Below, piece by piece: positions 11,460 through 64,000 of a stretch of 64,000 bases of DNA. The first letter of the stretch is position 1, and each line of letters begins with the position of its first letter. A program made the translations under genes and the position numbers. This DNA is from Candidatus Bathyarchaeota archaeon. GTDB lineage: Archaea > Thermoproteota > Bathyarchaeia > TCS64. The DNA is taken from contig JAOZHO010000015.1 in the NCBI GenBank assembly GCA_026014875.1, positions 62,001-126,000 of the forward strand, written 5' to 3'. The notes below the pieces were generated by a model that saw only the letters and a list, made by a program, of their open reading frames with translations, was not told where the DNA came from and did not search any database.

Positions 11460-11489
11460 AGCGTATCAGGATCGAGAAATGGAATAAAA

Positions 11490-11507
11490 AGAAGGCTCTA
11501 GCCTTCT
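11490..11507. terminator. Inverted repeat between convergent genes
   Basis: AGAAGGCT and AGCCTTCT form a perfect inverted repeat separated by two bases (usable as GAAGG stem with a 6-nt loop). It sits between the ends of the pilin gene (11459) and the PAC2 gene (11507), and A-tracts flank its left side. This is a plausible shared 3'-end signal; its role in archaeal termination is inference. Confidence 0.4.
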
Positions 11508-12698: not shown

Positions 12699-12736
12699 CT
12701 TACATATAGAAAGTATAAGGTTAGTGGATTCGCCGA

Positions 12737-13075: not shown

Positions 13076-13151
13076 CACGGTCCGTTTGTTTTGGGATGGC
13101 AAGGCTTTTCTCCCACCGGATTCGGGTTTCTCCGGGAGTGGATGCTGCGTT

Positions 13152-13589: not shown

Positions 13590-13666
13590 GGAACGCCCTC
13601 GCCTCATGAAGCTGGAATCGATTTAGTTTATATAGGGAGCCAATAGTCTCCAGATCGGGTGCTGCA

Positions 13667-14218
13667 TTGGATCTCGATTTCAGTAGGAATCTAATTGTCC
13701 GGGAGGCGATGTCCAGCCCTGTCATCACGGTCGGGGAGAACGATTCTGCAGCAGATGCAGCCGGTGTGATGAAGGAGCATGGGATAGGCGCCATCATAGT
13801 GCATGGAGGGGATACCCAACCCGTGGGCATTGTCACCGAGAGAGACCTCGTCTACAGGGTAATCGCAGAGGGGAAATCTCCCAGCGAGATCACGGTCAAA
13901 GAGGTGATGTCCTCTCCGTTGATGACCGTGGAGCCGGAGGCGAGCCTCGAGGAAGCGATGGAAATGATGAACACGAACAGCATCAGGAGGCTCGGGGTGA
14001 TCTACAAGGGGAGCCTCGAGGGGGTGATCTCGGACAAGGACATCATCAGGATCATGCCCACCGTTATCGAGATCGTCCGAGAGAGATCCAAGATCCAGAG
14101 CGGAGACCAGTCTTCGGGGCCGTCCGTCGTGGGTTACTGCGACAGGTGCGAGATGTACACGCCGAACCTGAGAAGCGTAGACGGGGAGTTCCTCTGCGAA
14201 GACTGCAGGGCAGAATAG
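13667..14218 (+). CDS. CBS-domain pair protein with C-terminal zinc ribbon
   Basis: Two CBS motifs in tandem (VREAMSSPVITVGENDSAAD and VKEVMSSPLMTVEPEASLEE) make a Bateman module that binds adenine nucleotides or SAM. After it a short C-terminal ribbon has CDRCEMYTPN and CEDCRAE. The 183 residues start at TTG 13667, about 35 bp after TATA-like TTTATATAGG. Likely an energy- or ligand-sensing regulator; partner unknown. Confidence 0.85.
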   Translation: MDLDFSRNLIVREAMSSPVITVGENDSAADAAGVMKEHGIGAIIVHGGDTQPVGIVTERDLVYRVIAEGKSPSEITVKEVMSSPLMTVEPEASLEEAMEMMNTNSIRRLGVIYKGSLEGVISDKDIIRIMPTVIEIVRERSKIQSGDQSSGPSVVGYCDRCEMYTPNLRSVDGEFLCEDCRAE

Positions 14219-14321
14219 CGGTTCAACCAGGCCCCAACACAAGTTATCGATGCATCTCCAACTTGGAAACCGTTTTGTGTATCCGGGCGTATAAGGGTCC
14301 ATAGGTTTAACGAGGGATTGA

Positions 14322-14816
14322 ATGCCCCCATCCTTCCTGGTCGACGGAATGCTCGGCTCCCTCAACCGTTGGCTCCGGATCTGCGGATACGAGACTGAGT
14401 TCTCGAGGGACGCCTCCGACGATGAGCTTTTGGAACGGGGGAGGGAGAGGGGGCTAATCGTGCTGACGAGGGATAGACTCCTTCTCAGGGAGGCGAGGAG
14501 GAGCGGCGTGGATGCGTTCTTCGTGGAAGGGAGCAGCGACGAGGAGAGGCTTGCGTCTGTGGCCAGGGAGTATGGTCTCGTGCTTGACCCTGTGATGGCT
14601 CGATGCACCATTTGCGGCGGGAGGTTGAAAGAGGCATCACGGGATGAGATCGCCGGAGAAGTACCCCAGAATAGTCTGGAGGCGTATGACGGGTTCTGGA
14701 GGTGCAGTGGCTGTGGAAAAGTGTACTGGCGTGGGAGTCACTGGGCGAGGATCGTCGAGAAGGTCTCCGAGGCCTCGAGGATCGCAGGCGTGGTGAAGCC
14801 TGAAAATTCTTTATAA
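14322..14816 (+). CDS. Mut7-C RNAse-domain protein (DUF82)
   Basis: The PIN-like N-terminal half starts FLVDGMLGSLNRWLRICGY and continues ARRSGVDAFFV; the acidic residues D8 and D27/D30/D32 are as expected for the Mut7-C fold. The C-terminal half has a zinc ribbon CTICGGRL and CSGCGKVYWRGSHW. The 164-residue length fits the family. Predicted RNA-cleaving or RNA-processing role. Starts with ATG 14322 and sits 21 bp before the AMMECR1 gene, so probably one transcript. Confidence 0.88.
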   Translation: MPPSFLVDGMLGSLNRWLRICGYETEFSRDASDDELLERGRERGLIVLTRDRLLLREARRSGVDAFFVEGSSDEERLASVAREYGLVLDPVMARCTICGGRLKEASRDEIAGEVPQNSLEAYDGFWRCSGCGKVYWRGSHWARIVEKVSEASRIAGVVKPENSL

Positions 14817-14837
14817 GGCCCCTGACAGGGGGTATCG

Positions 14838-15476
14838 GTGGCGAAACAGTTGAGCTTCGAACTCGACCCGGAGGAGGGAGCATTCCTCGTTGGCTTTGCG
14901 AGGGGCTCCATCGAGGCGGCGCTGGGCGGCGGTGAGCCCCCCAGCCTAGGGGATGTCTCCGAGAAGCTGAGGACCGACTGCGGGGTGTTCGTCACGCTCA
15001 ACAAGGTTTCGGGACCCACCCATAGTCTCAGGGGGTGCATCGGGTTCCCCTATCCGGTGATGCCTCTGGTGGACGCAGTCTCGGAGGCGGCTGTGAGCGC
15101 TGCCCTGAGAGACCCCAGATTCCAGCCGGTGAGCCTCGAGGAGATGGGCTCCGTCGCCGTGGAGGTGAGCGTGCTCACGCCCCCCGAGAAGATCGTGGTG
15201 GAGTCCCCGGGGGAGTACCCCGATCACGTCCGGGTTGGGAGGGACGGGCTCATCGTGGATCGGGGCTCCAACAGGGGGTTGCTGCTGCCCCAGGTGGCGG
15301 TGGACTGGGGGTGGAGCGCCGAGGAGTTCCTCACCCAGTGCTGCATCAAGGCGTATCTCCCCCCTGACTCCTGGCTGACTCCGGGAACGGAAATATTCAG
15401 GTTCAGGGCCATCATCTTCGCGGAGGAGCAGCCCCGGGGAAGAGTGGTAAGAGTGGAGCTCAAGGACAGCTGCTGA
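14838..15476 (+). CDS. AMMECR1 domain protein
   Basis: A member of the widely conserved AMMECR1 family (TIGR00296-like in archaea). It shows the LRGCIGFPYPVMPLVDAVSE signature and later GLLLPQVAVDWGWSAEEFL and CIKAYLPPDSW. It starts at GTG 14838 and is 212 residues, close to the archaeal norm. Biochemical function is unknown; in many archaea it neighbours radical SAM or redox genes, which is not the case here. Confidence 0.93.
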   Translation: MAKQLSFELDPEEGAFLVGFARGSIEAALGGGEPPSLGDVSEKLRTDCGVFVTLNKVSGPTHSLRGCIGFPYPVMPLVDAVSEAAVSAALRDPRFQPVSLEEMGSVAVEVSVLTPPEKIVVESPGEYPDHVRVGRDGLIVDRGSNRGLLLPQVAVDWGWSAEEFLTQCCIKAYLPPDSWLTPGTEIFRFRAIIFAEEQPRGRVVRVELKDSC

Positions 15477-15486
15477 GGCGATACTG

Positions 15487-16674
15487 ATGGACTTTGATGG
15501 TTCGAAGATCTACCTGGGCCCGTGCGGAATCGGGCTGGGCCACGTGGGGAGGACCATCCCCGTCGCGAGGGAGCTGAAGCGCCGAGGGGCGGAGGTGATG
15601 TTCTCCACCTACCTGGAGGCGGTGGAGTTCGTGAGACGGCAGGGGTTCCCGGTGGTGAGGAGCCCCGCGATAAGCCTTGTGTCGGACTTGACGGGCCGGA
15701 TCGACCTCAAGGCGACTGTTCTGAGTCGGGGGGTCTCCACTCTCACGACGCTCGTGAGGCAGATCAAGGCTGAAGTGGAGTACATCAAGTCCTTCGGGCC
15801 CGATGTCGTTGTCTCTGACTCTCGTCTCTCCACGGTGGCCGCTGGGAAGCTCCTGGGGCTTCCGGTGGCCCTGATCCTCAACCAGTTCAGGCTCATGGTC
15901 CCCCCCGCGGAGCTCAACCAGAACTTCATCAGGATCGTCGACGGGGGGATCATGACGGTGCTCAGCGGGGGGTGGGGCTCCAGCGACGTCATCATCATCC
16001 CCGACTTTCCACGGCCCTACACGATCTGCCTCGACTCCCTCAGGATTCCCCGGCTGCATCAGGACCGTGTGCGGATAGGGGGTTTCATCCTCGAGAGGAG
16101 GCCGGAGGAGGTGCGAGGCTCGGAGCGGGTCAGGGCGGAGGTGGGGGCATCGGAGACCGACAAGGTGATCTACGCTGCCATCAGCGGGCCCAAGCAGGAG
16201 AAGGTACCCCTCATCAAGATGCTGAAGCCCATCTTCGAAGACTTCCCCGAGGACGTCAAGGTCGTGATGTCCACGGGGGACCCCGAGGGGGGATCCGAAC
16301 CTGTCACGTCTGGGAGCCTCACGGTGATCCCGTGGGTCGAGGACCGCTACAGGTACCTCAAGGCAGCGGACGCGATAATCTGCAGGGGAGGCCACAACAC
16401 GATAATGCAGTCCATCTGCTACGGCAAACCCAGCATCATCATCCCCACCCCCAACCATACGGAACAATACGCGAACACGAGGAGGGCGAAGGAGCTCGGG
16501 TTCGGCGAGGCGATCCACCAAGATGATGTGGACAGGGAGATGCTCCTCGAGTTGATCGAGATGTTGACGTTGAACCCGGAGTACGAGGAGAGATTCGGGA
16601 AGATCAACGCCATGGGCTTCACGGATGGCATCGAGAACGCCGTCGAAGCCATCCACGAGTTGCTATGCAAGTAA
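15487..16674 (+). CDS. Glycosyltransferase, GT28/MurG-like
   Basis: A GT-B fold enzyme: N-terminal glycine-rich acceptor loop GPCGIGLGHVGRTIPVARE and C-terminal UDP-sugar-binding region CRGGHNTIMQSICYGKPSII with IPTPNHTEQYANT. The length is 395. It probably transfers a sugar to a lipid carrier or glycan; donor and acceptor cannot be read from the sequence. It starts 8 bp after the AMMECR1 stop and likely shares its transcript. Confidence 0.85.
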   Translation: MDFDGSKIYLGPCGIGLGHVGRTIPVARELKRRGAEVMFSTYLEAVEFVRRQGFPVVRSPAISLVSDLTGRIDLKATVLSRGVSTLTTLVRQIKAEVEYIKSFGPDVVVSDSRLSTVAAGKLLGLPVALILNQFRLMVPPAELNQNFIRIVDGGIMTVLSGGWGSSDVIIIPDFPRPYTICLDSLRIPRLHQDRVRIGGFILERRPEEVRGSERVRAEVGASETDKVIYAAISGPKQEKVPLIKMLKPIFEDFPEDVKVVMSTGDPEGGSEPVTSGSLTVIPWVEDRYRYLKAADAIICRGGHNTIMQSICYGKPSIIIPTPNHTEQYANTRRAKELGFGEAIHQDDVDREMLLELIEMLTLNPEYEERFGKINAMGFTDGIENAVEAIHELLCK

Positions 16675-50970: not shown

Positions 50971-51012
50971 GGTGCGGGGGGTGGGACTCCCACCCAGATT
51001 TACTAGTAAAAG
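50971..51012. repeat. Repeat G with perfect GGGTGGGA/TCCCACCC hairpin
   Basis: GTGCGGGGGGTGGGACTCCC then ACCCAGATTTACTAGTAAAA. The inverted repeat at 50979-50995 (GGGTGGGA and TCCCACCC with a single base between) can form a hairpin; AGATTTACTAGTAAA follows. Belongs to the same family as B2, H and I. It lies just ahead of the island's first AT-rich gene. Confidence 0.5.
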
Positions 51013-51164
51013 GATAATTAGTTGTAGCGGATCCTTTCATTTCAATAAAATACCGAATGAAGGGTCATTTCTGTAGGAGTCTCGTGAATTCACGACAGGG
51101 ATACTACTCAAATCTCCCGCACATGAATAGCTAGTCTTAAGATAATTAGCCCCAAATATTGTCT

Positions 51165-52130
51165 ATGGAGACTCTGTTTTTCGATCAAAACTTACTTGGT
51201 GTTGCGCGATATTTAGAGAATAAAGGTACAAAAGTCCGCGATATAACTGAAATTTTAGGACATAAGGATACAAGGCAGGGCGTCCCCGACGATTCAATTA
51301 TCGATCATTTGAGAGACAAGTCTTCACTAATTTTGGTAACAAAAGATAAGGGACTGGCTAGGAAAGCACGAGAACATAATATCAAAGTCATTTTAATAGA
51401 CGAAACTGAGGTGCTTGCGACTGAGGTACTTTGCCGTATTGCTGCGCGAGTTCACACAATAGATGTGGAATCTATAATAGAATCACTTCAATCATTTTCA
51501 TCTGGTTATAGGTCTCGAAAATATGATGAACAATTCAACGACTTTTGGGTGTGGAAAAATCACGTCGAAAAAACAGAGTCAATTCTGGATGAAACCCATA
51601 TCGATGAGACATGGAATCGACTCCGAAAAATCCTCGGTGGTTGGCAGACATATCGAGGAACAAGAAACGAGTATCCTTACCGCGACCTGAAAAAGAGCTT
51701 GATCGATGTTGCTGAATCAATCAAAGTGTTGAACGAGTTCTCATTCCTAGATTTTTGGAAAATCCCTACAGAAAGTCTTGAAGATATATGGAACGCTCTG
51801 GGCAGGGTGAAGGAACCTGAAGGAAAAACGAACGAGGAGGGTAGGTATTTCGTCATAGCTGTATGTAAACCCCTGATGCTTCTATGGGGACAGACACTAG
51901 CTTTTGATCAACGTGTACGATTTTCTTTACCGCGTCAATTCGATGTCAGTATGGAAGATCGTAAATGGACATTTTCTAAATGGCACAGCGTAATGACATC
52001 AATCACAAAATGGGTGAAAAATCAACCTGATCTCGTAACATTTCTAGAGGAAGAATCAGCACGGAGATACGGTGAACAAATGAAGATACCCTATGGAAGA
52101 TTTCTGGACATTCACTTTTTTGAAAAATAA
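51165..52130 (+). CDS. PIN-like (DUF5615) N-terminal domain fused to unknown C-terminus
   Basis: 321 residues from ATG 51165 (TTG 51159 also possible). The first ~100 residues are PIN-like: METLFFDQNLLGVARYLENK, then LILVTKDKGLARKA and VILIDETEVLATEV. These put acidic residues D, D, D/E in the right positions for an RNase. The remaining 200 residues are helical and charged with no recognisable domain. AT-rich codon use; unlikely to be core. Likely a defence or toxin-like module. Confidence 0.6.
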   Translation: METLFFDQNLLGVARYLENKGTKVRDITEILGHKDTRQGVPDDSIIDHLRDKSSLILVTKDKGLARKAREHNIKVILIDETEVLATEVLCRIAARVHTIDVESIIESLQSFSSGYRSRKYDEQFNDFWVWKNHVEKTESILDETHIDETWNRLRKILGGWQTYRGTRNEYPYRDLKKSLIDVAESIKVLNEFSFLDFWKIPTESLEDIWNALGRVKEPEGKTNEEGRYFVIAVCKPLMLLWGQTLAFDQRVRFSLPRQFDVSMEDRKWTFSKWHSVMTSITKWVKNQPDLVTFLEEESARRYGEQMKIPYGRFLDIHFFEK

Positions 52131-52132
52131 CT

Positions 52133-52153
52133 TGGCTCGGTGGGATTCGAACC
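52133..52153 (-). pseudogene. tRNA 3'-end fragment J (T-loop and acceptor)
   Basis: Minus strand GGTTCGAATCCCACCGAGCCA is a complete T-loop plus 3' acceptor half of a tRNA. The matching 5' part (TGGCTCG at the start of a tRNA) is absent upstream. This 21-bp piece looks like the conserved 3' block used by integrases as an attachment site, or the remains of a broken tRNA gene. It sits between two convergent genes. Confidence 0.55.
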
Positions 52154-52231
52154 AGATTAGCAACACGCAATCAAACATGATGTCATGTCCTGATACGGAC
52201 TTGATGAAAAGACAATATACACAATCGGTAT

Positions 52232-52894
52232 TTAGATCGAAATATGTGCACGCCTATTGCATGCTTGGGTGGCGCTATTTTTTTCGATTATCACAGCTAT
52301 CCAGACATTTCGATGCTCGGTGTCAACCTTTGTAGGAAACTCAACAGGATTCCCTCGGGTTACTACATATGTTTTTTCTAACGTTTCTAGCGATTCGAGA
52401 TTTGGGTTTGAAACTGCAACAACTGCTACGACCTTGGCATTCTGTTTGAACCCATTTTTAATTCGAGTTCCTTTTCTATCGTCGGAAGTGATGGCTTTGA
52501 ATTCAAATTCCTGGAAATCACTTTTTGCTTTAGAGGAGTGTCTTATGCACCCAATATCAATCAGGTCGCCATAGAATACATCCTCAATGCCTTCCCCTGC
52601 AGCAACATTAACATTTACTAGGAATTTCTTCTTTCTTCGAATTGATTGAGAAAGTGCATCGAGTATTTTCTCATTCTTAGATTTACTGTGGCCGATTTCC
52701 TTTTCTTTGAATATTATTGTGGCTGTAAGACAAAATTTATTCTTATGAGTTGTAGAGGAGACTAATAGTTTTTGTAGAGTCATATTGGTTTTGGCGATAT
52801 CCTGCTGGATGAAGGAGTTGACCTCTTCTTCAAATCTAGATACAGCATGTGATTCCGAGGTGTTGGAGCTGTGAATTACTTTCACACGAACCAT
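52232..52894 (-). CDS. Hypothetical protein of the AT-rich island
   Basis: 220 residues starting ATG 52894 (MVRVKVIHSSNTSESHAVSR). No motif recognised; mixed alpha/beta with KFLVNVNVAAGEGIEDVFYG, then DIGCIRHSSKAKSDFQEFEF. Convergent with the PIN-like gene. Function unknown. Confidence 0.45.
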   Translation of the reverse strand: MVRVKVIHSSNTSESHAVSRFEEEVNSFIQQDIAKTNMTLQKLLVSSTTHKNKFCLTATIIFKEKEIGHSKSKNEKILDALSQSIRRKKKFLVNVNVAAGEGIEDVFYGDLIDIGCIRHSSKAKSDFQEFEFKAITSDDRKGTRIKNGFKQNAKVVAVVAVSNPNLESLETLEKTYVVTRGNPVEFPTKVDTEHRNVWIAVIIEKNSATQACNRRAHISI

Positions 52895-53126
52895 AATATA
52901 TCATAGACATCGATAGTAGTTATCAAGTTTTTTACATACTCGTAACCTTGACGAAGAAGGTATTCAAATCAAACTGGGTCATACGTTCCACCCTATATCA
53001 AACAAACTAGATGGTTCTCTCTAACCGTGATTGAACGAATGGGATTGTGCGTACACTTGCAAGCCTGATGATTAACATTCAGTAATAAATAGTTTTTATA
53101 TGAAAATATTCTAAATATCTATATAT

Positions 53127-53957
53127 ATGTCCCAGAAAGAAGAGAACTTCATAAATTTTGTGAGTTATTTGTGGGAAAAACATCCTGAATGTTTTACCAG
53201 TAATCCATGGACAGAGAGACTTGATGGGGAAGAATGGGCGTTCTCTGTGTTTTTAAGAACAATTATTTGGAATGATCCAGAATCAATCAAACTTTATAAG
53301 AAAATTCAAGGGTACAAGGGAACACTAGAGAAATATAGAACTCTGTCTCCGTCGCAATTCGAAGAATGGTTCGATGAGCAACAAAGTTCAATATTAATCG
53401 GTGGAAAGAACCAAGGAGGAGCTCATAGAAAACAGTTCCATAAAAAAGATAATCCTAGGGCATTGCGTAAATACTTGGATAAAACATCAATTGGTCAGAT
53501 AGACTTCTTTAAGGGTAAGAGTTTTGACCAGTTATATCAAGAAATAAAACAAATCCCTTCTATTGGGAAATTATTGTCATTCGATATTTTGAGTAGACTA
53601 GTACAAACAAGACATAATTATCTAGAACTCAATCCATTGAAAGCTTATGAAACTGGAGGGGGTCCTATCAAAGGCCTCCAAGCAATATATGGTAAAAGTC
53701 TTTCAAAACCCGAATTGATGGAACTATATCAACAACTGGGAGAAAAAATTCAAGTTGTCGCAGATATTCCACCAAGAATCTTTTGGTTTGAATTAGAGAA
53801 CATATTATGCATCTATCAGAAAAAAAATATCAAAGAAAAAAGTATGAAAATGTTGTCTGGACATCTAAATCCATTAAAGTATTCTCATTTATACGCCAAG
53901 GAATTCTGCTCAAGTGAGCGAGGATGTAATGACGACGCCCAGAACGAATGTTGTTGA
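53127..53957 (+). CDS. DNA-glycosylase-fold protein, similar to thymine-pyrophosphorylase (TOPP)-type proteins
   Basis: 276 residues. The segment IPSIGKLLSFDILSRLVQTR then GGGPIKGLQAIYGKS recalls alpha-glutamyl/putrescinyl thymine pyrophosphorylase proteins linked to hypermodified phage DNA (HhH-like glycine loop, then a GPG/GP-GL loop). I assign only the glycosylase fold with moderate confidence and the modified-base link as inference. It starts at ATG 53127; the next gene may contribute a reader-nuclease. AT-rich. Confidence 0.4.
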   Translation: MSQKEENFINFVSYLWEKHPECFTSNPWTERLDGEEWAFSVFLRTIIWNDPESIKLYKKIQGYKGTLEKYRTLSPSQFEEWFDEQQSSILIGGKNQGGAHRKQFHKKDNPRALRKYLDKTSIGQIDFFKGKSFDQLYQEIKQIPSIGKLLSFDILSRLVQTRHNYLELNPLKAYETGGGPIKGLQAIYGKSLSKPELMELYQQLGEKIQVVADIPPRIFWFELENILCIYQKKNIKEKSMKMLSGHLNPLKYSHLYAKEFCSSERGCNDDAQNECC

Positions 53958-54134
53958 ACGCACGGGATTATTTGTGAAATAAATACCAAGGGGGATCTAA
54001 ATATCTTCTATGATCAGAGTATTCCCTCTTTTACTCGCACACGTGACCCGTGGATATATCTCCCGTCTCTCTCCCCTTTATTTGGCAAGGCTGGATGTTA
54101 AAATCTTAATAATGTTGTAGTTTAAATAATAATT

Positions 54135-55151
54135 ATGCCAAAATTCTTAACATTTTCACCAACGCACGTCTCTGGTGAAAAAGAAAATGCATGGAACCAT
54201 TTTCTCGCTGGTGGGTACATAGCTATCGGTTGGATTTGGGGAGATGACCTTTCAGGGAAATCGATTGAAAAAGTCGTTGAAATAATTCAAATGCATGCTT
54301 ACGCTAATGAGGCATATGCTATAGAGGCTTTTACTAAATTTCTTGCTCTTGAAAAAGGAGATTATATTGCGATTAATAATACAAATGATGGTCTATTTGG
54401 TATTGGCATTATTACCTCCGAATATAAATATGAACCTGATAAACATCCTACAGGTGGCGACGAAAAAAATTTTTACTCGCATTATCGAGATGTAGATTGG
54501 ATTTACACCAATTATGTGAAAAGAAAAGATGTGATCAATCCCGGAGAAAAAGGTTGGAAACCATATGGAACGGTAGGAAGTATGCTTGAAGAAGTTCCTC
54601 CCTATATCAAAAGGATTATAGGGGAAGAATTGCCGAAAGAAACTCCTGACGAAGTAATTCGACCAGAAAAGTATCTTGGAGTTATTGAATCTATTGAACG
54701 ATTAAAAAATGATCAAAATCATTCTGAAAGAGATCATGAATCATTAGTGGAACATTTTCTTGTTGCACTTGGTTATGGTGGGAATCAAGAAATTAAATAT
54801 CGTCGAGGTCGTATTGATGTCGCAATAAGTATGGATGATAATATTGTGGTAATTATAGAGGTAAAAAAGGATTGGAATTTAAATGCTCAATATTATCCAC
54901 AAGTTGTTCAACAAGGATATATGTATGCTTTAGATCAAGGAGTAAGATATGTTCTTATTACGAATGGTGATTATTACGCAATTTTTGATCGATTAAAAGG
55001 CTTATCGACCACCACAAATTTAATTGGTGAATTCAGACTCAGTTCTTTGAAAAACGAAGATTTAGAAATAATCAATATTTTATCGCCCGAAAAAATGAAT
55101 AAACCTGATCTGAAGGACCTTTTCCAAAATCTATCAGAAAATTTTCCATAA
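54135..55151 (+). CDS. Predicted modified-base reader fused to PD-(D/E)XK nuclease
   Basis: 338 residues. The N-terminal ~150 residues (GGYIAIGWIWGDDL, then IEAFTKFLALEKGDYIAINN) have a PUA/EVE-like look (W-rich start with GDYIAI strands). The C-terminal half has the PD-(D/E)XK core RRGRIDVAISMDDNIVVIIE then VKKDW (D, then E-x-K), preceded by an acidic helix HESLVEHFLVALGYGG. Fusions of a base-reader to such a nuclease are known for type IV-like restriction; substrate here is inferred. Confidence 0.55.
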   Translation: MPKFLTFSPTHVSGEKENAWNHFLAGGYIAIGWIWGDDLSGKSIEKVVEIIQMHAYANEAYAIEAFTKFLALEKGDYIAINNTNDGLFGIGIITSEYKYEPDKHPTGGDEKNFYSHYRDVDWIYTNYVKRKDVINPGEKGWKPYGTVGSMLEEVPPYIKRIIGEELPKETPDEVIRPEKYLGVIESIERLKNDQNHSERDHESLVEHFLVALGYGGNQEIKYRRGRIDVAISMDDNIVVIIEVKKDWNLNAQYYPQVVQQGYMYALDQGVRYVLITNGDYYAIFDRLKGLSTTTNLIGEFRLSSLKNEDLEIINILSPEKMNKPDLKDLFQNLSENFP

Positions 55152-55222
55152 GTTCCATGGCTCAAAGCGCGGCGGATTTTTAGAAATATATATTATTAAC
55201 TAAATTATTGTGCGGATATTTG

Positions 55223-55265
55223 CGCACACGCGCAGTGGGGCTCCCAACAGATTTACTGGTAGCTA
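55223..55265. repeat. Repeat H of the AGATTTACTAGTA family
   Basis: GCGCACACGCGCAGTGGGGC then TCCCAACAGATTTACTGGTA. TGGG-GCT-CCCA forms a short hairpin; the trailing AGATTTACTGGTA parallels G (50971) and I (58791). Located between the reader-nuclease gene and the NUDIX gene. Confidence 0.5.
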
Positions 55266-55333
55266 TTCTTAAAATCCGCGGGACCTTGAGATCATGATAA
55301 CTTTTCGCGTGCGCGCCCGTTGAAGGAAAGGGA

Positions 55334-55741
55334 CTAGTATTGAATGACTTTCAACATCTCCGTAGCGATGATGTACGACATGAAGTTATCCTCGGTCAGT
55401 CTCTCGAGCTCGACGTATTCGGCTCTCACGAATTTCCCCTCGGGGTTCGGATGGACCGCTTCGCCGACAATATTTGCGCTGTATATTAATTGTAGACAGT
55501 GAGTCGTGCGATCCTCGTAGATGGCCTCGTCAGCATGCAAGAGGCCTAGAACCTCGATCTCGAAGCCCGTCTCTTCCCTGAGCGCCCTCACGACAGTCTC
55601 AGTCAACTCCTCGCCTGGTTTCGTCCAACCGCCAGGGAGGGCCCAGAACGGTTCATCGTTCTCGTTGTGTCTCACCACCAGTATTCTCGTGTCTTTTATC
55701 AAGACCACACTGACTCGGATAGGTAATGGAGCTTTATCCAC
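55334..55741 (-). CDS. NUDIX hydrolase
   Basis: 135 residues with the complete Nudix box GGWTKPGEELTETVVRALRE then ETGFEI (G-x5-E-x7-R-E-x2-E-E). Hydrolyses nucleoside-diphosphate derivatives; substrate undetermined. Surrounding codon use is intermediate. Confidence 0.93.
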   Translation of the reverse strand: MDKAPLPIRVSVVLIKDTRILVVRHNENDEPFWALPGGWTKPGEELTETVVRALREETGFEIEVLGLLHADEAIYEDRTTHCLQLIYSANIVGEAVHPNPEGKFVRAEYVELERLTEDNFMSYIIATEMLKVIQY

Positions 55742-55789
55742 AGTTTCTCGGGTAAGCCTTGAGGGGTATTTGATTCTATATGCCCCGGC

Positions 55790-55846
55790 GTGAATGGTTG
55801 TTCTAGCGAAAATCGAACTCGTATCGGAGGGCCCTCAACCATTCAC
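55790..55846. repeat. tRNA-like minihelix K with 11-bp terminal inverted repeat
   Basis: GTGAATGGTTG (55790-55800) and CAACCATTCAC (55836-55846) are perfectly inverted. The interior on the minus strand reads GAGGGCCCTCC then ACGAGTTCGATTTTCGC, a T-arm-like hairpin (CGAG with TTCG pairs). The structure resembles an acceptor stem plus T-arm without D or anticodon arms. It lies between the NUDIX start and the 225-residue gene's end, so it may also act as a 3' signal. Confidence 0.5.
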
Positions 55847-55848
55847 CT

Positions 55849-56526
55849 CTATAACTTGATTTTCTCAAGAATATCTATCGCTTGTTTGAATCCATTTTCT
55901 CGTACTCTATCCCAGATATACCAAGGGATATCGGGATTCTTAGGCTCAACGATGATCGAGAAGGCAGGCTTATTGTTTCGTTTCAGCGCTGGATCGATTA
56001 TTAAAGATAAAAGACACGCCTCTGAATCCAATTGAAAGATTATTCTGCGCTCTTGCTCCACTATTGTTTTTACCTCAACAGCTCTATGGAGTTTTATTAT
56101 CTCCTTCTGAAATTTATCGTCAATATAGCAGTTGACGTAGGCCACATCGTCTCTGCTCTCAGATAGGTGCCCCTCACAGCTGGACCACGTTTCAAGGCCT
56201 AATTCTTCATTAAATATCCGCACTTCATTGGCTATGCCTTCATCCACATCGGTTCTATAGTCCCCCTCAATATGACCTCCTTTACGTGCTCCTCGCTTCC
56301 TATTTTCTGGCGGTGGAGTGCGAAGTCGGAATCCGCTGCTTTCCCTCAGTAACGCTATTTTGTGACATGCTTCTCGAAAATTATCAAGTGATACGTCATC
56401 ACTTGTTGAGAGTATTGCACATTGGCCTTCTATCCTCAATGGGCAAGGTGGGTCATCATCACAGTCAAGGTGAACACCTGAGTCTAAATCTTGGGGGCTC
56501 ATCCATTCCTCGTAAGTTATTTTCAT
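55849..56526 (-). CDS. Hypothetical protein with Cys-rich N-terminus and SCEGH motif
   Basis: 225 residues from ATG 56526. N-terminal CDDDPPCPLRIEGQCAIL (possible metal-binding cysteines); middle WSSCEGHLSESRDDVAYVNC resembles the SC-GH segment of proteins with an active-site Ser/Cys and His. C-terminus IPWYIWDRVRENGFKQAIDI. No family assigned. Lies ahead of the nuclease operon genes and shares their AT-richness. Confidence 0.45.
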   Translation of the reverse strand: MKITYEEWMSPQDLDSGVHLDCDDDPPCPLRIEGQCAILSTSDDVSLDNFREACHKIALLRESSGFRLRTPPPENRKRGARKGGHIEGDYRTDVDEGIANEVRIFNEELGLETWSSCEGHLSESRDDVAYVNCYIDDKFQKEIIKLHRAVEVKTIVEQERRIIFQLDSEACLLSLIIDPALKRNNKPAFSIIVEPKNPDIPWYIWDRVRENGFKQAIDILEKIKL

Positions 56527-56557
56527 TTACGATGCCTCCAACCGTGCGCTGATGAGT

Positions 56558-57061
56558 TTACTCGAACTCTATTTTTCCTTCGTTGTCGATCCTGGCTACA
56601 AGCCATTCATATTTGCTATTCTCAATAGACGTTTTGGCTTGTTCTCGTAGCCTGTTTATCATCGGATTCTCGAGCTTTTTTGATAAGAAAATAAGATCCG
56701 TGATTTCTTTAGACTTGTTCATATCCTGGAACACAAGGAAATCTACAGGATTTAAAACAGGTTTAATGTCACTTGGGTCAAATTTCATTCTTCGAAAGTC
56801 CTGTTTAATCGCATTGTTGAACACCACCTCAGCCTGTCTTCTACCCTCAGCCCTCGCAGCCTCCCGCAGCTCACCCTTAACCGCGTCAAACTCAGCCTCC
56901 CTACCACTGAGAAGCCTCTCCCTATACTCGTAGTAATCCAGCCAGGTATTCTCAGTCTCAGCCTTCGTCTTCAACTTCAAATCGGAGAGACGGACAATTT
57001 TTCCGCAATCTGGGCAGACGCAGAGTATCTTTCTGAACTCTTGAAACTCCTCGAGCGCCAT
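56558..57061 (-). CDS. Degenerate Holliday-resolvase-like endonuclease paralogue (Endonuc_Holl family)
   Basis: About 167 residues from ATG 57061, overlapping the stop of the upstream paralogue (TGATG). N-terminal zinc-like CVCPDCGKIVRLSDLK. The nuclease-fold segment KPVLNPVDFLVFQDMNKSKE then LIFLSKKLENPM keeps the leading D but has FLSKK where the active paralogue has the E-x-K (FIEVKSG). Probably a catalytically impaired partner subunit. Confidence 0.65.
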   Translation of the reverse strand: MALEEFQEFRKILCVCPDCGKIVRLSDLKLKTKAETENTWLDYYEYRERLLSGREAEFDAVKGELREAARAEGRRQAEVVFNNAIKQDFRRMKFDPSDIKPVLNPVDFLVFQDMNKSKEITDLIFLSKKLENPMINRLREQAKTSIENSKYEWLVARIDNEGKIEFE

Positions 57062-57537
57062 CAAAACACCCTGTACTTAACCCGATTATCCTCGACTGCC
57101 TCTTTGACCAGTTTCTGGTGCTTGTTTAACCTCGCTTTTCCGCTCTTGACTTCGATGAAGCTGATGGAGTCTATGTTATTCTCGGATAAGCCGTTGAATG
57201 TGAGTAGATCGATGGGGTCGCCGAGGAATCTGCAGTCAGGTAATTGCCATTTGAAATCCTCCATCATTGGGAGGATTTTTTCCAGAGTTTTTCCGATGTT
57301 GACCGATCTTGTTGTGATGGTGGCTTTCTCAGTGGTTAGTTTCTTATTTTTTTCTAGTTTTGCATTTCGCTCCCGTAGTTCTTCTTCGTATCGTTCCTGG
57401 ATCTCTAGTACCTCGGGTGGGAATGGCTTGGTTCCGTCGAATAGTAGTAGGTCTGATAGCTTGTGCTCAGCTCCGCATGGACATTCTGCATAAAGGTCGG
57501 ATTTCTTGAGGCGATCAATAATTTTCTGAGTGCTCAA
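57061..57537 (-). CDS. Holliday-resolvase-like endonuclease (Endonuc_Holl, PF10107-type)
   Basis: 158 residues with the nuclease core CRFLGDPIDLLTFNGLSENN then SISFIEVKSGKARLN and HQKLVKEAVEDNRVKYRVF. The GDPID / E-x-K pattern is intact and a Cys pair CPCGAEHKLSD is present. The N-terminal half is a coiled-coil. Coupled to its degenerate paralogue; suggests a heteromeric nuclease. Confidence 0.85.
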   Translation of the reverse strand: MSTQKIIDRLKKSDLYAECPCGAEHKLSDLLLFDGTKPFPPEVLEIQERYEEELRERNAKLEKNKKLTTEKATITTRSVNIGKTLEKILPMMEDFKWQLPDCRFLGDPIDLLTFNGLSENNIDSISFIEVKSGKARLNKHQKLVKEAVEDNRVKYRVF

Positions 57538-57544
57538 ATGGAGT

Positions 57545-58621
57545 TCACATTACCTTATTTCGTTCTTGCGTCAACTCTTGTAAGAACTGAATGAATTTTC
57601 TTGCTTCAGGCATCTTGATATACCCGGTATAACCGGACCATTGTTCAAGAATATCCCTTTCTGCATAACTCTTCTGATCACCGGGTGTTCCATACCTCCA
57701 TGGTTCTCGGTCTGAAGGAAGAATTGATAACAACTTCTCCTCACTGATATTGAAATATTCTCTAAATCTTAGATCATAGAGCTGCCAACGAAGACCATGT
57801 TCTGAGTCGCTGTCGGTTGGAATTAAATTAAATATCGCGGATCTTTTCGTTTCCCTGAATTCTCCCGTAAATGCAATTGAACTCCTTGTCCTATTTGTAC
57901 CGCGGAGATACTGCTGCAGCTCATTAAACAAATATGAATAGACTTCGCCTACGCCTCTTTCATCTGAAATCTCTTGGAGTTGCTCATATGTTAAGTTAGG
58001 TCTTCTCTTTGAACTAGTGCTCGGAGTAACCGGTACTCGAGACGGTTCAATCAAGAAAGTACGTGCAAGAAATTCATCTTTGCCTTCCTTGAAATAATTG
58101 AATGTAATCGCATTAATGGCTACTCTATAATTTTCTGACAAATAGTTGATAATCCGTTGGCTGCTACTATCAATCTTGGAACCAACAACAAGCATTCTAA
58201 GTTCCTCGTTAATAGATTCAGGAAGACTTTGATTGAATTTAGTTTGATAAGCTTCTTCAAAACTCACATTTTTCAAGTATCTCTCAGCAATTCTCTGTAC
58301 TTTTTCAGGTGAGAGGTGTTTTACCCATGAAGCATAATCGAGAACTTGAGCGGTAATCTCTCGGGGGGTTTTATCTCTTTTTAGTTCTATAATGATGAGG
58401 TCTCCTTTCTCATCGATGCATAGTAAGTCGATTACTCCACCATAATCGGTTTCACATTGTCTATCGATAACGAGGAGATTCTGTGCTATAATTGAAATAT
58501 CTGAGGCGATCCAACTTTCTAAACGCTCTTCGAGATCTAGTTTTGGTTTATGAATTTCTTCTAGTGTGTTCTTCTTAATTTTCCAAAGTCTTACTTCAGG
58601 TGTACCGGTATTAGTTTGCAT
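57545..58621 (-). CDS. NucS/DUF91-like PD-(D/E)XK nuclease protein
   Basis: 358 residues. The nuclease core is DYGGVIDLLCIDEKGDLIII then ELKRDKTPREI, with LDYASWVKHLSPEKVQRIAE as the flanking helix (D, E-x-K intact). It resembles NucS-type nucleases at the core only; the C-terminal 150 residues (from EISDERGVGEVYSYLFNELQ) are unfamiliar. Seven bp separate it from the resolvase-like gene, so a three-gene operon is likely. Confidence 0.75.
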   Translation of the reverse strand: MQTNTGTPEVRLWKIKKNTLEEIHKPKLDLEERLESWIASDISIIAQNLLVIDRQCETDYGGVIDLLCIDEKGDLIIIELKRDKTPREITAQVLDYASWVKHLSPEKVQRIAERYLKNVSFEEAYQTKFNQSLPESINEELRMLVVGSKIDSSSQRIINYLSENYRVAINAITFNYFKEGKDEFLARTFLIEPSRVPVTPSTSSKRRPNLTYEQLQEISDERGVGEVYSYLFNELQQYLRGTNRTRSSIAFTGEFRETKRSAIFNLIPTDSDSEHGLRWQLYDLRFREYFNISEEKLLSILPSDREPWRYGTPGDQKSYAERDILEQWSGYTGYIKMPEARKFIQFLQELTQERNKVM

Positions 58622-58790
58622 AATACTCCTTGATCTAAAAGATAATCGCTCAAATATAAGAATAAAAAATGAATCACATCTAAAATCACAATACTATTCC
58701 GCACGCGTAAAAAAAATAAATAAGAGGATTCCGATTTACCTTGGGCCTTTCTCGTAGATGTGAATCAGTGCTGAACTGAAGATAGAACAA

Positions 58791-58844
58791 CGCGCACGCG
58801 AAAATTATGGAGGCGGGAAGCTAACACAGATTTTCTAGTAAATG
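58791..58844. repeat. Repeat I of the AGATTTACTAGTA family
   Basis: CGCGCACGCGAAAATTATGG then AGGCGGGAAGCTAACACAGA and TTTTCTAGTAAATG. Shares the CGCACGCGA-ATTATGGAGGCGGG flank with E and F and the CTAGTAAA end with G. It lies between the nuclease operon and the DUF6884 gene. Confidence 0.5.
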
Positions 58845-58869
58845 TCTTGTTCACGGTCTGGTGTTTTCA

Positions 58870-59304
58870 TTAGTCGTAGTCTTGTAAGCGAACATTATAC
58901 CACTGTAACTGTTCACCTTGTCTCAATCCTTTTAAAGGAACTTGAACCCGGATACCATCGCTTCGTATTAAAGGAATGAGATTCTCTCGGTACTCCAACC
59001 CTGCATGAAAAAAAATCTCACTAATTTCCTTAAAATCTAACTTGTCTTTAAGCTGCTTGTACACTCTTTCTGCCCACTGCTTCTTCTCTTTTCTCCTCAT
59101 GGTCTTGAGAGTCTGCTCATAGGGTTCAATAACTTCATGGGGTAAGAGCAGACCGTGTTTAGCACTAATGATGGCTACCTTGTCGTATTGTTCAATGGCA
59201 AAGTCATAGGCTTTTGAGAAGAGCGCTGATGGCTGATACATCTCCTCCGCTCTGCAGGGGTAGTTTTGCTTCGACTTTGAACAGCTTATTAATCCCAGTT
59301 TCAT
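58870..59304 (-). CDS. DUF6884-family protein
   Basis: About 144 residues from ATG 59304, beginning MKLGLISCSKSKQNYPCRAE then MYQPSALFSKAYDFA. The KHGLLLPHEVIEPYEQTL motif is characteristic. Members occur in phage/defence contexts; catalytic role uncertain. Divergent from the glycosylase gene at 59346. Confidence 0.75.
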   Translation of the reverse strand: MKLGLISCSKSKQNYPCRAEEMYQPSALFSKAYDFAIEQYDKVAIISAKHGLLLPHEVIEPYEQTLKTMRRKEKKQWAERVYKQLKDKLDFKEISEIFFHAGLEYRENLIPLIRSDGIRVQVPLKGLRQGEQLQWYNVRLQDYD

Positions 59305-59345
59305 ATCCTGCCTCAATTTTCATATACGGCTAAATCATATTTAGA

Positions 59346-60332
59346 ATGAGTGTCTTGAAGGCTATCTGCTCCCGCTGCGAGATTGAATACACAGTTGATG
59401 AATATCAAAAAGACCGATTCTGCAAAAATTGCGGGGCACATCTCAAGCTAGTGACGTCACCGATTGTAAGAAAAGCAGACTTTGAAGGAGAAAATGACGA
59501 CCGTTTCATGTACGATACTATCTTGGCCACATCCATCGGCAGGGTACTTCATGATCAATTCCAGAACAAAACAGGTTACTTTGAAGGACATGTGATGCCC
59601 GAATACATACCCCCCTCAATCGATGAAGGAAGCAGAGAGTTGGCCCTATACTACACATTTGTAATTGCTGTTGATTATCAGACAGATGCTCATAAGCTAT
59701 GGAGAAACGCGAGGCGTCTTTACAGTCAGAGTCCTGAGTATTTTGAACCAGAGAACATCATTAATGTCTCCGATGATGAGTTGAAAGCCTTTGTAAGGAG
59801 CCTCGGAGCCCGGTTCCCCAATAATGGAGCAAAGGCCTGGAAGGATATTTCAAGGATTTTAATCAGGCAATATGATGGGGACCCACGTAACATTACACGG
59901 GAGCCGCTGACCTCGAGAGAGGTGTGGAGGAGGCTGGATAAGTTTCCTTACATCAGGGGAAAGAAGATAGGAACGCTATATCTCAGGGTCATGGGGGATC
60001 TTGGTCTTTTCAAGATCTCGGACCTAGATCAGCTTGACGTGGCGGTTGATGTCCAGGTGTCCCGCTTCACGTTCTATACGGGAGTTCTCACTCCATTAGA
60101 GGCGATGACGGGGTGTGTGCATAATCCTCCGATTAAACCTGCGATTGAACGGGTGTGGAGGCAAGCTGCGAAAAGTGTTGGGTGTGCTCCTTGGCAGTTG
60201 GATATGCCGATGTGGGTCATTGCATCTAAACAGTGTACGGGAAAGTGGTGCGATCCATGTCCTGTAAATGAACTCTGTAAACAGAATTTTGATGCTAGCA
60301 TTCAAGGAAATAACCTATCGTATAGACCTTGA
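59346..60332 (+). CDS. HhH-GPD glycosylase-like protein with 4Fe-4S cluster and N-terminal zinc ribbon
   Basis: 328 residues: N-terminal zinc ribbon CSRCEIEY and CKNCGAHL; core with FPYIRGKKIGTLYLRVMGDL (HhH) and LDVAVDVQVSRFTF (catalytic Asp position of HhH-GPD); C-terminal cluster ligands CTGKWCDPCPVNELC (C-x4-C-x2-C-x5-C). Similar in plan to endonuclease III or an excision glycosylase for a modified base. Followed by an exonuclease, which fits a repair or base-editing pathway. Confidence 0.65.
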   Translation: MSVLKAICSRCEIEYTVDEYQKDRFCKNCGAHLKLVTSPIVRKADFEGENDDRFMYDTILATSIGRVLHDQFQNKTGYFEGHVMPEYIPPSIDEGSRELALYYTFVIAVDYQTDAHKLWRNARRLYSQSPEYFEPENIINVSDDELKAFVRSLGARFPNNGAKAWKDISRILIRQYDGDPRNITREPLTSREVWRRLDKFPYIRGKKIGTLYLRVMGDLGLFKISDLDQLDVAVDVQVSRFTFYTGVLTPLEAMTGCVHNPPIKPAIERVWRQAAKSVGCAPWQLDMPMWVIASKQCTGKWCDPCPVNELCKQNFDASIQGNNLSYRP

Positions 60333-60392
60333 AAGGAGAGATCTGAGTTTTTCGGAAGGCATTTACTTCTCACTTGATTTTTCATTAATAGG

Positions 60393-60953
60393 ATGGTCCA
60401 GATCTTCTTTGATATTGAGACGTACAGTCCCCATGTTTCTGGGCCGAGGCTGTGTGATAAAGTCATCAGCATAGCGTATAAGATTGGGGACTCCGATGTC
60501 GTGGTGTTGAAGGAGTGGGAGCTGGGTGAGAAGGCGGTCCTCACTCGGTTTCTTGATGTGATTCAGAGTCAGGATAGGCCTAATATCATCGGTCATAATA
60601 TTCTCAGGTTTGATATTCCGGTTATTGTATGTCGCTCATTGGAAAATGGTCTTGGACGGCTTGGGGAGATATACTCTGTTTTCAGGGAACCGTATGGGAT
60701 TGATACATTACAATGCTTGCTGCCTTCGAATCGAATGTATTTCAGAGGATTAGGCCTCGCTGCATGTGCTGAAAGGCTCGGCATATCCTTGGCGAGCGAG
60801 AATAGTTCATCGATCCAGGAGCTGTATGAAAGAGGGGAATATGAGAAAATCGTCCATCATAATGTTGAGGATGCCCTGGTTACCGAGAGGTTATACTATC
60901 ATCTCATGAATTGTGATTTCGATCCGTTCAACGTTGGGAGAGAGATTAGATAA
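60393..60953 (+). CDS. DEDD-type 3'-5' exonuclease (DnaQ-like / pol B N-terminal-type)
   Basis: 186 residues. Exo I IFFDIETYSP (Asp-Glu), Exo II IIGHNILRFDIPVIV and Exo III HHNVEDALVTERLYYHL (D-E-D-D set). Stand-alone exonuclease fold as found in DNA polymerase proofreading domains. Start ATG 60393; its stop overlaps the start of the tiny downstream gene (TAATG). Confidence 0.8.
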   Translation: MVQIFFDIETYSPHVSGPRLCDKVISIAYKIGDSDVVVLKEWELGEKAVLTRFLDVIQSQDRPNIIGHNILRFDIPVIVCRSLENGLGRLGEIYSVFREPYGIDTLQCLLPSNRMYFRGLGLAACAERLGISLASENSSSIQELYERGEYEKIVHHNVEDALVTERLYYHLMNCDFDPFNVGREIR

Positions 60954-61096
60954 TGGTAGCCTGGATTCTCCTATTGGTCGTTCTGGTTGTCTTCGTTGTT
61001 CTCATGAACGGGAATAACATCGAGGATGAGGATGATCTTGAGCTTCTCGAGGAGGAGGTTTTACTCCTCTACGATGAAGAAGAAGATTTACCCTGA
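60953..61096 (+). CDS. Tiny single-pass membrane protein with acidic tail
   Basis: 47 residues: MVAWILLLVVLVVFVVLMNG as membrane helix, then NIEDEDDLELLEEEVLLLYD and EEEDLP. Overlaps the exonuclease stop by one base, so it is translationally coupled. Role unknown; may anchor the exonuclease or sense membrane damage. Confidence 0.55.
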   Translation: MVAWILLLVVLVVFVVLMNGNNIEDEDDLELLEEEVLLLYDEEEDLP

Positions 61097-61163
61097 GATT
61101 GACCATTATTCGGAAAACCTCGGAATTCTGGCTTTTCACCCATAGAAAGACATTTTTAAAGGA

Positions 61164-63662
61164 TTAGATTTTTAATGGTTCTAATAATTCGAGCAGTTCT
61201 TCTCTGGTCCATCCTGCGAAACCACCGGTGGCGCTAAGCACCGAATCAGCAATTCCCCGCTTTTTTTCCAATATCTTTTCTATTCGTTCCTCAAGAGTTC
61301 CTTCAGTTAATACATGGTGAACAAACACTGTCTTCTTCTGACCAATACGATGAACTCGGTCCGTGGCCTGATCCTCAACCGCTGGATTCCACCAACGATC
61401 AACATGTAAAACATGATTAGCACCGGTCAATGTTATCCCCTGACCAGCAGCAAGCAAACTACACAGAGCAACATTAATCTCCTGTTCATTGAAACGGTCA
61501 ATCAACTCCTGTCTATTGCGAGTCGAACCATCAATACGGATATAACTAAGGCCAGCTTCCACAACAAATCGTTCGAACAAATCAAGAGTTCCTAGGAAGT
61601 GACTGAAAAGCACTACCTGATCCTCACTATCAACAATTTCTTGTATCTTCTCACAAAAAATATCGAATTTCTCTGATCTACCGTGAATAGGCGTCTTATT
61701 CCCAGTTATTAGAGCGGGGTGATCACAAACCTGTTTTAATTTTGTTATTATCGCTAAAATGTTTATTCGACTAACATTCACGCCTTTCTGAAGAGATACG
61801 CGAATTGGATTTACGTTTAAATCTTGTATTTGCCCATATAGAGCCCTCTGCTCCGTGGTCAAACTACAGGTACCATTCATGGGAATCTTATCTGGAAGGT
61901 CTTTAGCAACGTCTTTCTTTAATCGACGTAGAACAAAGGGGTTAATCCGTTTAGCCAGATACTTTGCTTTTTCTTGGTCCCCGTCAATGATTGGTTTCTC
62001 GATTTTTGAGACGAAGCCACCATAAGAGCCAAGATGCCCCTTCATCAGGAAATCAAAGAGAGACCACAACTCTGCAGGCCGATTCTCTATGGGGGTACCA
62101 CTTAACACGAATCTGTGAGCGGCATTCAAACTCTTAATAGCCTTGCTTCGCTTTGCCTGAGGGTTCTTAATTCGAGTCCCTTCATCAAGAATCAGGTAAT
62201 AGAAAGGAACCTTCTGCAATATCTCCACATCATTAGTCGCAGTTGCGTACGTCGTAATGAATATTCGAGGATTTTTACTGAAGAATAGTTTACTGTTTCG
62301 CATTGGTCCATGATAAATTTTAATACGAGCGTCAACCCACGCTTTTCTAATTTCTCGCTCCCAGAAACGTAACACTGAACGAGGACAAATAATCAGACTA
62401 TGGTGATCGGGGTTTTCTTCATAATAGTTTAACCGCATGTTAATTATAGATTGAATAGTTTTCCCGAGCCCCATATCATCAGCAAGAATACCATGGAGAT
62501 AATGGTCAGAAAGCCAGTTCAACCATTGAATACCTGCTCTCTGATAACCTCTCAAATCGATGCCATTACTTACCAGAGTTTTTTCAAGATCATCGGGAAG
62601 TCTATAATCGAAATCAAACTCAAAACCAGTTAATTCATCCTCAAATCGTTGATACTCTTCTGAAACGCTCTTTAGACCACCAATATGAGCAATGAGCTCC
62701 TCTAACGACTGGAACTTTGTAATATCTGTCCGTAACCCATCTTTGTCGAATTGCACACCAAGTTCATTCAATTGTTCCTGTAGTTCCTTGATCTGGTTTT
62801 CATCGTACTTCGCCCACGTTTTATCACCAATTTTGACATATCCGTTCTTACCATTCTGAAACAAGTCAAGAGGAAGAATATGTTCTCCAATTTGATAATT
62901 CACAACAAAGTCAAGCCAACCCTTGTCTCCCATGTTAAGGGAGAATAAAGGAACCATTTCCTCGTCTAAAACTTCAAAGGTCTCAATTCCTCCGAGGAGT
63001 ACTGCGTTGAAATTCAGTTTTAGGAACGCCAGGTCTCGTTTTAAAAACTCTGGAATGTCTATATCGGGTATGTAGAATTGTTCAGAGTCTATATACTTTC
63101 GAATTTGATCGTTTTCCTCGACTGGAGTCAGGTAAAACTCGTTCTCAATTCGTGAATACTCTGGGTCAGGTGTACTTTGGAGGTCGCCTTTTAGTATTAA
63201 TTCGTCTTTTCCTTTTCGTTGATATCCAATTTCGCCTTCAATTCCTTCGTTTTGAGTATACGATAATTTTGCGACTCTAGGCAATGGCTTTTCATGAATA
63301 ATGATTTCATTGGATGCTTCTGTTTCTTCGATTTTTTCTTTCTCTCTTAGATAATTGAGAACGGACGGATATACCTGGGAAGTGATTACTCCTTCCTCAG
63401 TGATTTTAGCGTTAAGTGCTCTTAATGCGAGTAGAGTATCAAAGTCGTCTCGGGATAATACGTGTTTGATCTTGTCTGTTTCCCAGATGAATCCATGTCT
63501 CCATAAAGCATTCACGTCTCGGACAGGCGTTCGGCTATCTTCTTCGAACCTGTATACTCTGATTTCGTTTAACCCTTCCTGGTAATCTACTTCAAATTCT
63601 AATGATATTGGGATTATCTGGACGCCTTGGAACCATGAGATGACTCGTGAAATGAGGCTCAT
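61164..63662 (-). CDS. SNF2-family helicase/translocase
   Basis: 832 residues from ATG 63662, overlapping the stop of the partner gene (ATGA). Helicase motifs: I LADDMGLGKTIQS, II LILDEGTRIKNPQAKRSKAI, III-IV FVLSGTPIENRPAELWSLFD, V-VI LLAAGQGITLTGANHV and QATDRVHRIGQKKT. The first ~350 residues are an unusual N-terminal region without known domains. SNF2 enzymes remodel or restrict DNA; in defence islands they often pair with a nuclease or unknown partner. Confidence 0.9.
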   Translation of the reverse strand: MSLISRVISWFQGVQIIPISLEFEVDYQEGLNEIRVYRFEEDSRTPVRDVNALWRHGFIWETDKIKHVLSRDDFDTLLALRALNAKITEEGVITSQVYPSVLNYLREKEKIEETEASNEIIIHEKPLPRVAKLSYTQNEGIEGEIGYQRKGKDELILKGDLQSTPDPEYSRIENEFYLTPVEENDQIRKYIDSEQFYIPDIDIPEFLKRDLAFLKLNFNAVLLGGIETFEVLDEEMVPLFSLNMGDKGWLDFVVNYQIGEHILPLDLFQNGKNGYVKIGDKTWAKYDENQIKELQEQLNELGVQFDKDGLRTDITKFQSLEELIAHIGGLKSVSEEYQRFEDELTGFEFDFDYRLPDDLEKTLVSNGIDLRGYQRAGIQWLNWLSDHYLHGILADDMGLGKTIQSIINMRLNYYEENPDHHSLIICPRSVLRFWEREIRKAWVDARIKIYHGPMRNSKLFFSKNPRIFITTYATATNDVEILQKVPFYYLILDEGTRIKNPQAKRSKAIKSLNAAHRFVLSGTPIENRPAELWSLFDFLMKGHLGSYGGFVSKIEKPIIDGDQEKAKYLAKRINPFVLRRLKKDVAKDLPDKIPMNGTCSLTTEQRALYGQIQDLNVNPIRVSLQKGVNVSRINILAIITKLKQVCDHPALITGNKTPIHGRSEKFDIFCEKIQEIVDSEDQVVLFSHFLGTLDLFERFVVEAGLSYIRIDGSTRNRQELIDRFNEQEINVALCSLLAAGQGITLTGANHVLHVDRWWNPAVEDQATDRVHRIGQKKTVFVHHVLTEGTLEERIEKILEKKRGIADSVLSATGGFAGWTREELLELLEPLKI

Positions 63663-64000
63663 GGGTAGTTCTCCGATAATGTTTTGAACCATAGAGGCAT
63701 TGTTCGCCACTCTGGGAAACTACCCAGAAGGTATTCTGTTACAATTTGTGAGGCCTCTTGATCGCCGTTATATGAGGTGACGAAGGTGGAAGGTTTTACT
63801 ATGTTTAATTTGTCAAGTTCGAGTTCCACTGTTTTCTGTAATCTGTTTTTTGGGTTGTATTCATTCGTTATACTGTTGATTTTTCGATTTGCGTCTCGGA
63901 TCTTTTTTGAATATTCGTTTCGGATGGATTGTTTACCTTGAAATTCGCCTCTTAATCGCTGGGGTAGTTTTCTTCGAGTGCGAGAAATCCACTGCTGAAT
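63659..64000 (-). CDS. Unidentified partner of SNF2 helicase (C-terminal part, cut by window edge)
   Basis: The frame is open from the window edge to TGA at 63659-63661, giving 113 visible residues. They are basic and helical (IRNEYSKKIRDANRKINSIT) and end VTEYLLGSFPEW, then WFKTLSENYP. ATGA overlap with the SNF2 gene shows strict coupling. No domain recognised from this part; the rest lies outside the window. Confidence 0.6.
   Translation of the reverse strand: MQQWISRTRRKLPQRLRGEFQGKQSIRNEYSKKIRDANRKINSITNEYNPKNRLQKTVELELDKLNIVKPSTFVTSYNGDQEASQIVTEYLLGSFPEWRTMPLWFKTLSENYP

Follow-up and report, generated by a model that had tools for sequence, protein, structure and literature searches.

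A rare, mobile archaeal gene pair coding for a COG4741 nuclease and its degenerate paralogue, with a possible role in virus-host conflict

The window, by which we mean the whole 64,000-nucleotide stretch analyzed here, comes from a 2.5-Mb genome of Candidatus Bathyarchaeota and contains three neighboring nuclease-like ORFs, which we confirmed in position and as lying on the minus strand. The first of these, at 57545-58621 (358 aa), codes for a NucS_C-domain nuclease (Pfam NucS_C 1.7e-6, with an intact GGVID...IIIELK signature; PADLOC candidate family PDC-S11). Its stop codon is separated by 7 nt from the TTG start of gene A (57061-57537; 158 aa), which specifies a predicted catalytic nuclease of the PF10107/COG4741 family (Endonuc_Holl; 8e-27). 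Gene B (56558-57061; 167 aa; PF10107 1.8e-5) specifies a degenerate paralogue of A, or pseudo-nuclease; its ORF spans 56558-57064, with the ATG at 57061 as the likely start. The stop codon of A and the start codon of B overlap in a TGATG at 57059-57063, and, with the spacing seen in other A-B pairs (below), this makes translational coupling of the two genes likely. The pair lies in a low-GC island, with a GC content of 0.41 over 51-64 kb versus 0.58 over the first 46 kb of the window.

In A, the helix glutamate corresponding to the first Glu of the family motif (E86; 57280-57282), the catalytic aspartate of GDPID (D110; 57208-57210), and the E-V-K of FIEVK (E129-K131; 57145-57153) are all intact, and a cysteine pair (C19 and C21; 57475-57483) provides putative metal ligands. 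B retains the aspartate in an NPVDF motif (D107; 56741-56743) and has FLSKK in place of FIEVK, with S-K-K (residues 127-129; 56675-56683) at the position of the E-V-K of A, and a C-x-C-x-x-C motif (C14, C16, and C19; 57005-57022) that likewise could bind metal. The sequence-only reading of this locus had described a NucS-like protein with intact D and E-x-K residues, an Endonuc_Holl-type protein with intact GDPID and E-x-K, a paralogue with FLSKK at the latter site, and the TGATG overlap, all of which are borne out by the profile matches and the sequence.

Both A (94.4 bits) and B (25.1 bits) score above the PF10107 gathering cut-off of 23.8 and are the sole matches to this family in the genome. 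They align with each other over their full length (157 columns; hhalign probability 99.7), which, with the recurring arrangement of an intact and a degenerate copy, rules out a chance likeness. Judged by its residues, B is a homologue of the PF10107 proteins but does not qualify as a member sharing their activity. COG4741 was predicted in 2005 to be an endonuclease family distantly related to the archaeal Holliday junction resolvases, with a minimal PD-(D/E)XK core and an N-terminal transmembrane (TM) helix, and with roles that were offered as speculative (PMC1189080). A and B have the nuclease core in common with COG4741/PF10107, and A also shares the E-(V/I)D-E(V/I)K motif reported in PMC1189080; in contrast to the members with the N-terminal TM helix, they have a Cys hairpin, lack the TM segment, and occur as a predicted active/inactive pair. 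No functional work on COG4741 nucleases after the 2005 prediction was found in the literature, and the A-B pair itself was found neither there nor among the PADLOC models, with none of the families in PADLOC-DB 2.0.0 matching either protein. The terms "Holliday" and "AHJR" were not found in a survey of phosphorothioate systems (PMC10853773), and sequence searches gave no convincing solved relative of A or B.

The pair occurs 20 times in all, in members of several archaeal phyla and on one viral contig, and A always precedes B. A search of 257 genomes of the same class recovered tandem A-B pairs in six genomes besides that of the window (7/257 Bathyarchaeia, about 3%). A scan with a B profile, covering one genome per species, returned 15 loci: five Bathyarchaeota contigs already found and ten new ones from Thermoplasmatota, Nanoarchaeota (2), archaeon UBA543, Methanoregula, Micrarchaeota, Methanomassiliicoccales, uncultured archaeon LFW-252, Pacearchaeota, and Thaumarchaeota. 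Additional pairs come from one IMG/VR contig, from G535, a genome of the same phylum whose pair is deep-branching, and from G1131. Three further samples at the phylum level, all with their seed genome included, gave frequencies of 1/295, 2/279, and 1/243 (around 1% or less). Every B lies directly 3' of an A, with both genes on one strand, and overlaps it by 4 or 1 nt or abuts it, other than in G535 with its 14-nt gap; of the 19 pairs measured, 18 have a distance of -4 to 0 nt from the A stop to the B start, and the G1131 pair also overlaps by 4 nt. No B without an A was seen among the genomes and viral contigs searched; B was not found in plasmids, and the homologues of A in plasmids and phages are all distant and partial. 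The A-B pair is a rare, patchy, and mobile two-gene unit with a recognizable signature, namely CxCPxC, TWLD, and PVDF in the absence of E-x-K, all encoded immediately 3' of an intact A.

The residues E86, D110, E129, and K131 are all kept in A in 20/20 pairs, and the family active site E-(V/I)D-E(V/I)K is present in every A copy. In B, the helix Glu is gone in 20/20 pairs (N, K, T, or Q in the 19 aligned) and the Glu of E-x-K in 19/20 (S, T, or A in 18 of the 19 aligned), often together with the Lys, and the Asp is kept in all 19 pairs aligned. The G1131 pair shows the same residue pattern as the other pairs, and the sole B to retain the second Glu is that of G535. Among 161 distinct homologues, drawn from viral contigs and archaeal genomes, 148 have E-D-E/D-K; the other 13 are ten B copies without both glutamates, the G535 B, one sequence with N for K, and one with a gap at the motif. 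As 11 of these 13 are B copies and 148 sequences are intact, the loss of the active site is a property of B and not of the family. The G535 pair (L059, 1495-2516) is itself deep-branching, and its B has E-S-K and no helix Glu; this could possibly be an intermediate in the loss of activity.

In a 41-row tree, the B sequences fall on one side of a single branch (99/93) and the A sequences likewise (95/81), consistent with the origin of both from one duplication. The pairwise distances of A and B are correlated (r = 0.87), indicating that the two travel together. The window B groups with the copies from G052, Thermoplasmatota, Nanoarchaeota, and Methanoregula, and not with those of other Bathyarchaeia; hence, the pair does not track the host phylogeny. 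For the closest pair of genomes (G129/G130), dN/dS (NG86) is about 0.07 in A and 0.10 in B, an estimate limited to this one comparison because synonymous sites are saturated in most others. With this comparison and its conserved motifs, B looks to be under purifying selection; these two features and the full length of all copies rule out B being a decaying pseudogene.

By a simple hydropathy scan, a TM-like N-terminus is present in 130/138 other homologues, compared with 0/19 A and 0/19 B proteins, and a CxC or CxxC motif lies near the N-terminus in 18/19 of each. AlphaFold2 monomer models of A and B (pLDDT 77 and 82, with low pTM values of 0.36 and 0.49) predict a hairpin, a helix of 45-50 residues, and a small core; Foldseek searches with these moderate-confidence models found no match. 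The presence of two or three cysteines per chain suggests a metal site common to both chains. The comparison here is with the intermolecular Zn site of the Rad50 zinc hook (PMC6969161, PMC9569753), where a short Cys motif is similarly placed beside a long helix, this being an analogy only. On the IMG/VR contig (L055, 9630-10495), A is missing its N-terminal Cys hairpin together with a large part of the long helix, and B is full length.

Clustering of the flanking genes revealed no gene family that accompanies the pair throughout. In at least 11/18 loci, counting the PDC-S11 gene of the window, it has genes of restriction, modification, or defence nearby, with the neighbors picked selectively by position and not exhaustively. 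Adjacent to the pair or within about two genes of it are a D12 methylase (L040), GmrSD (L043), NERD-UvrD, DndB, and a DndC-like protein (L044), N6_N4 methylases (L045 and L047), AbiEii (L046), a C5 methylase and a Cas4-like nuclease (L048), a Cas4-like nuclease (L050), a type IV-like PLD nuclease (L052), and a C5 methylase (L055). There is no obvious defence gene among the neighbors checked in 7/18 loci, and in a small control 1/10 ordinary genes of the window contig gave a PADLOC match. No constant modification partner was found: in 6/18 loci, methylases or Dnd genes are no more than about two genes away from the pair, but their type varies. Defence islands gather unrelated genes, which counts against a defence reading. 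The neighborhoods support the possible defence setting proposed in the sequence-only reading. In a provirus-like region of Bathyarchaeia (L027 in G052, 3909-15617), genes for a terminase large subunit and a tyrosine integrase flank the pair; the IMG/VR contig bearing it also carries a tape-measure-like gene, and terminase-like and other shared viral genes lie near the pair of G071. At one further locus (L049, 10782-13703), the pair adjoins DUF790 and an XPB-like helicase gene.

In XPF-ERCC1 and other catalytic/pseudo-nuclease heterodimers, one of two paralogous nuclease domains is catalytic and the other inactive. A-B has this catalytic/inactive pairing in common with XPF-ERCC1 but matches neither the XPF nor the ERCC1 families and is a mobile archaeal cassette. 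The heterodimeric restriction enzymes like BspD6I (PMC6261011) are also restriction-type nucleases of two different subunits, but no sequence similarity to A-B is evident, and A-B has no constant methyltransferase partner. The reading we favor, with a probability of roughly 0.55, is that A-B is a nuclease built as a heteromer of a catalytic and a pseudo-nuclease subunit and is used in virus-host conflict. Its parts differ in strength: that A and B constitute one functional unit is very probable; that they form a heteromer is likely, given their constant co-occurrence and the catalytic loss in only one partner; and a function of the unit in defence or inter-element conflict, as its neighborhoods suggest, is on balance probable. 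The sequence-only reading had taken the degenerate protein to be a structural or recognition subunit of a nuclease complex. What stands of this is a non-catalytic partner of A, as B is always with A, conserved, and consistently without the catalytic residues; the structural or recognition function itself is kept below as a proposal.

In the favored reading, A would be the cutting subunit, with the minimal PD-(D/E)XK core (E86, D110, E129, K131) and a long helix headed by the Cys hairpin, and B its paralogue, from which the catalytic glutamates, and in many cases the Lys as well, disappeared once the gene had been duplicated. B might then contribute structure and recognition, much as ERCC1 does for XPF, and would probably be held to A by the long helices and a Cys-metal site common to both chains; both this site and DNA as the substrate are inferred. 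The unit would probably target foreign DNA, working as a restriction nuclease either on its own or in association with modification, and would also be carried by some archaeal viruses. As the pair recurs in scattered archaea and a few archaeal viruses, often near antiviral genes, it probably represents a two-part DNA-cutting machine of virus-host conflict that has so far gone undescribed. A more specific version, which we offer tentatively and at somewhat less than even odds, is an undescribed, horizontally mobile archaeal defence system in which a soluble two-subunit PD-(D/E)XK nuclease has its pseudo-nuclease twin recognize invader DNA, an intermolecular metal site joins the chains, and G535 represents a stage with E-x-K still present in B. 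The conserved soluble active/inactive pair within COG4741 offers a compact, testable unit with a clear sequence signature and an example of a pseudo-nuclease subunit arising by one duplication in archaea.

The main rivals to this explanation would make A-B a toxin with its inhibitor, an enzyme of DNA repair, or a viral function for taking over the host. Under the first of these, B would be the inhibitor, acting as an antitoxin or immunity partner of a toxic nuclease A until infection frees the latter. A compact, overlapping, mobile, and stand-alone two-gene module, whose B never occurs without A and which is found in islands and proviruses, would be in keeping with such a role. However, the putative antitoxin is coded by the second gene, is as large as A and about as conserved (mean identity 46% versus 48%), and has its own invariant N-terminal and C-terminal motifs with no regulator domain seen, making this explanation unlikely.

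Three points favor A-B being a host enzyme of DNA repair or Holliday-junction processing and not of defence: the family is named after the archaeal Holliday junction resolvases, repair is the role of XPF-ERCC1 and comparable catalytic/inactive pairs, and DUF790 and the XPB-like helicase adjoin one pair. Such a role is improbable for a pair that is present in only about 3% of Bathyarchaeia and, in other archaeal phyla, in around 1% or less of the genomes sampled, whose distribution does not follow the species tree, and which occurs in provirus-like regions with no constant repair neighbor. It is about equally improbable that A and B are virus-encoded functions for host takeover or superinfection exclusion captured by cells: the terminase and integrase genes around the G052 pair, the tape-measure-like gene of the IMG/VR contig, and the viral genes near the G071 pair would fit such an origin, but viral genes are nearby in only 3 loci versus the at least 11/18 with defence or restriction/modification genes, and the A of the viral copy lacks its N-terminal part.

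The NucS-like gene matches the PADLOC PDC-S11 model PDLC04916 over residues 9-207 (9.8e-71) but reaches 30.9 bits against the NucS equivalog cut-off of 216, and a much stronger NucS match is coded on a separate contig of the genome; hence, it is not NucS. It has a NucS_C nuclease core and is outside the A-B unit: no NucS-like gene was found beside the other A-B pairs among the loci examined, indicating that it is not part of a conserved unit. Searches of 18 other pair-bearing genomes or records gave only weak domain-level matches to it, and its good orthologues in Bathyarchaeia (G073, G100, G115, G135, G176, and G196) are all in genomes without the pair. The proposal in the sequence-only reading that the three genes form one three-nuclease operon and a single complex, for which the 7-nt gap in the window genome speaks, is thus scarcely credible, and as a conserved unit it is already refuted by these neighborhood and whole-genome searches, in which the pair recurs and the triple does not.

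The low-GC island occupies about 51000-64000 of the window and continues to about position 140000 of the contig (C24), with a GC content of about 0.41-0.44 against 0.58 upstream; it codes for several nucleases, a SNF2 helicase, a DUF6884 protein, and a NUDIX protein. Within it, a 276-aa protein (53127-53957, plus strand) matches ADDT (1.7e-6), HMUDK_hel (5e-6), and aGPT-Pplase3 (4e-5), which are families linked to phage DNA-base hypermodification. A further candidate nuclease of the island (54135-55151, plus strand; 338 aa) contains an HSDR_N-like PD-(D/E)XK region and matches the PADLOC family PDC-S02 (6.7e-13). On the other side of the three genes, a 328-aa protein (59346-60332, plus strand) gives a weak match of the HhH-GPD type (TIGR03252 1.3e-5), and its C-terminal GKWCDPCPVNELC motif resembles an Fe-S site.
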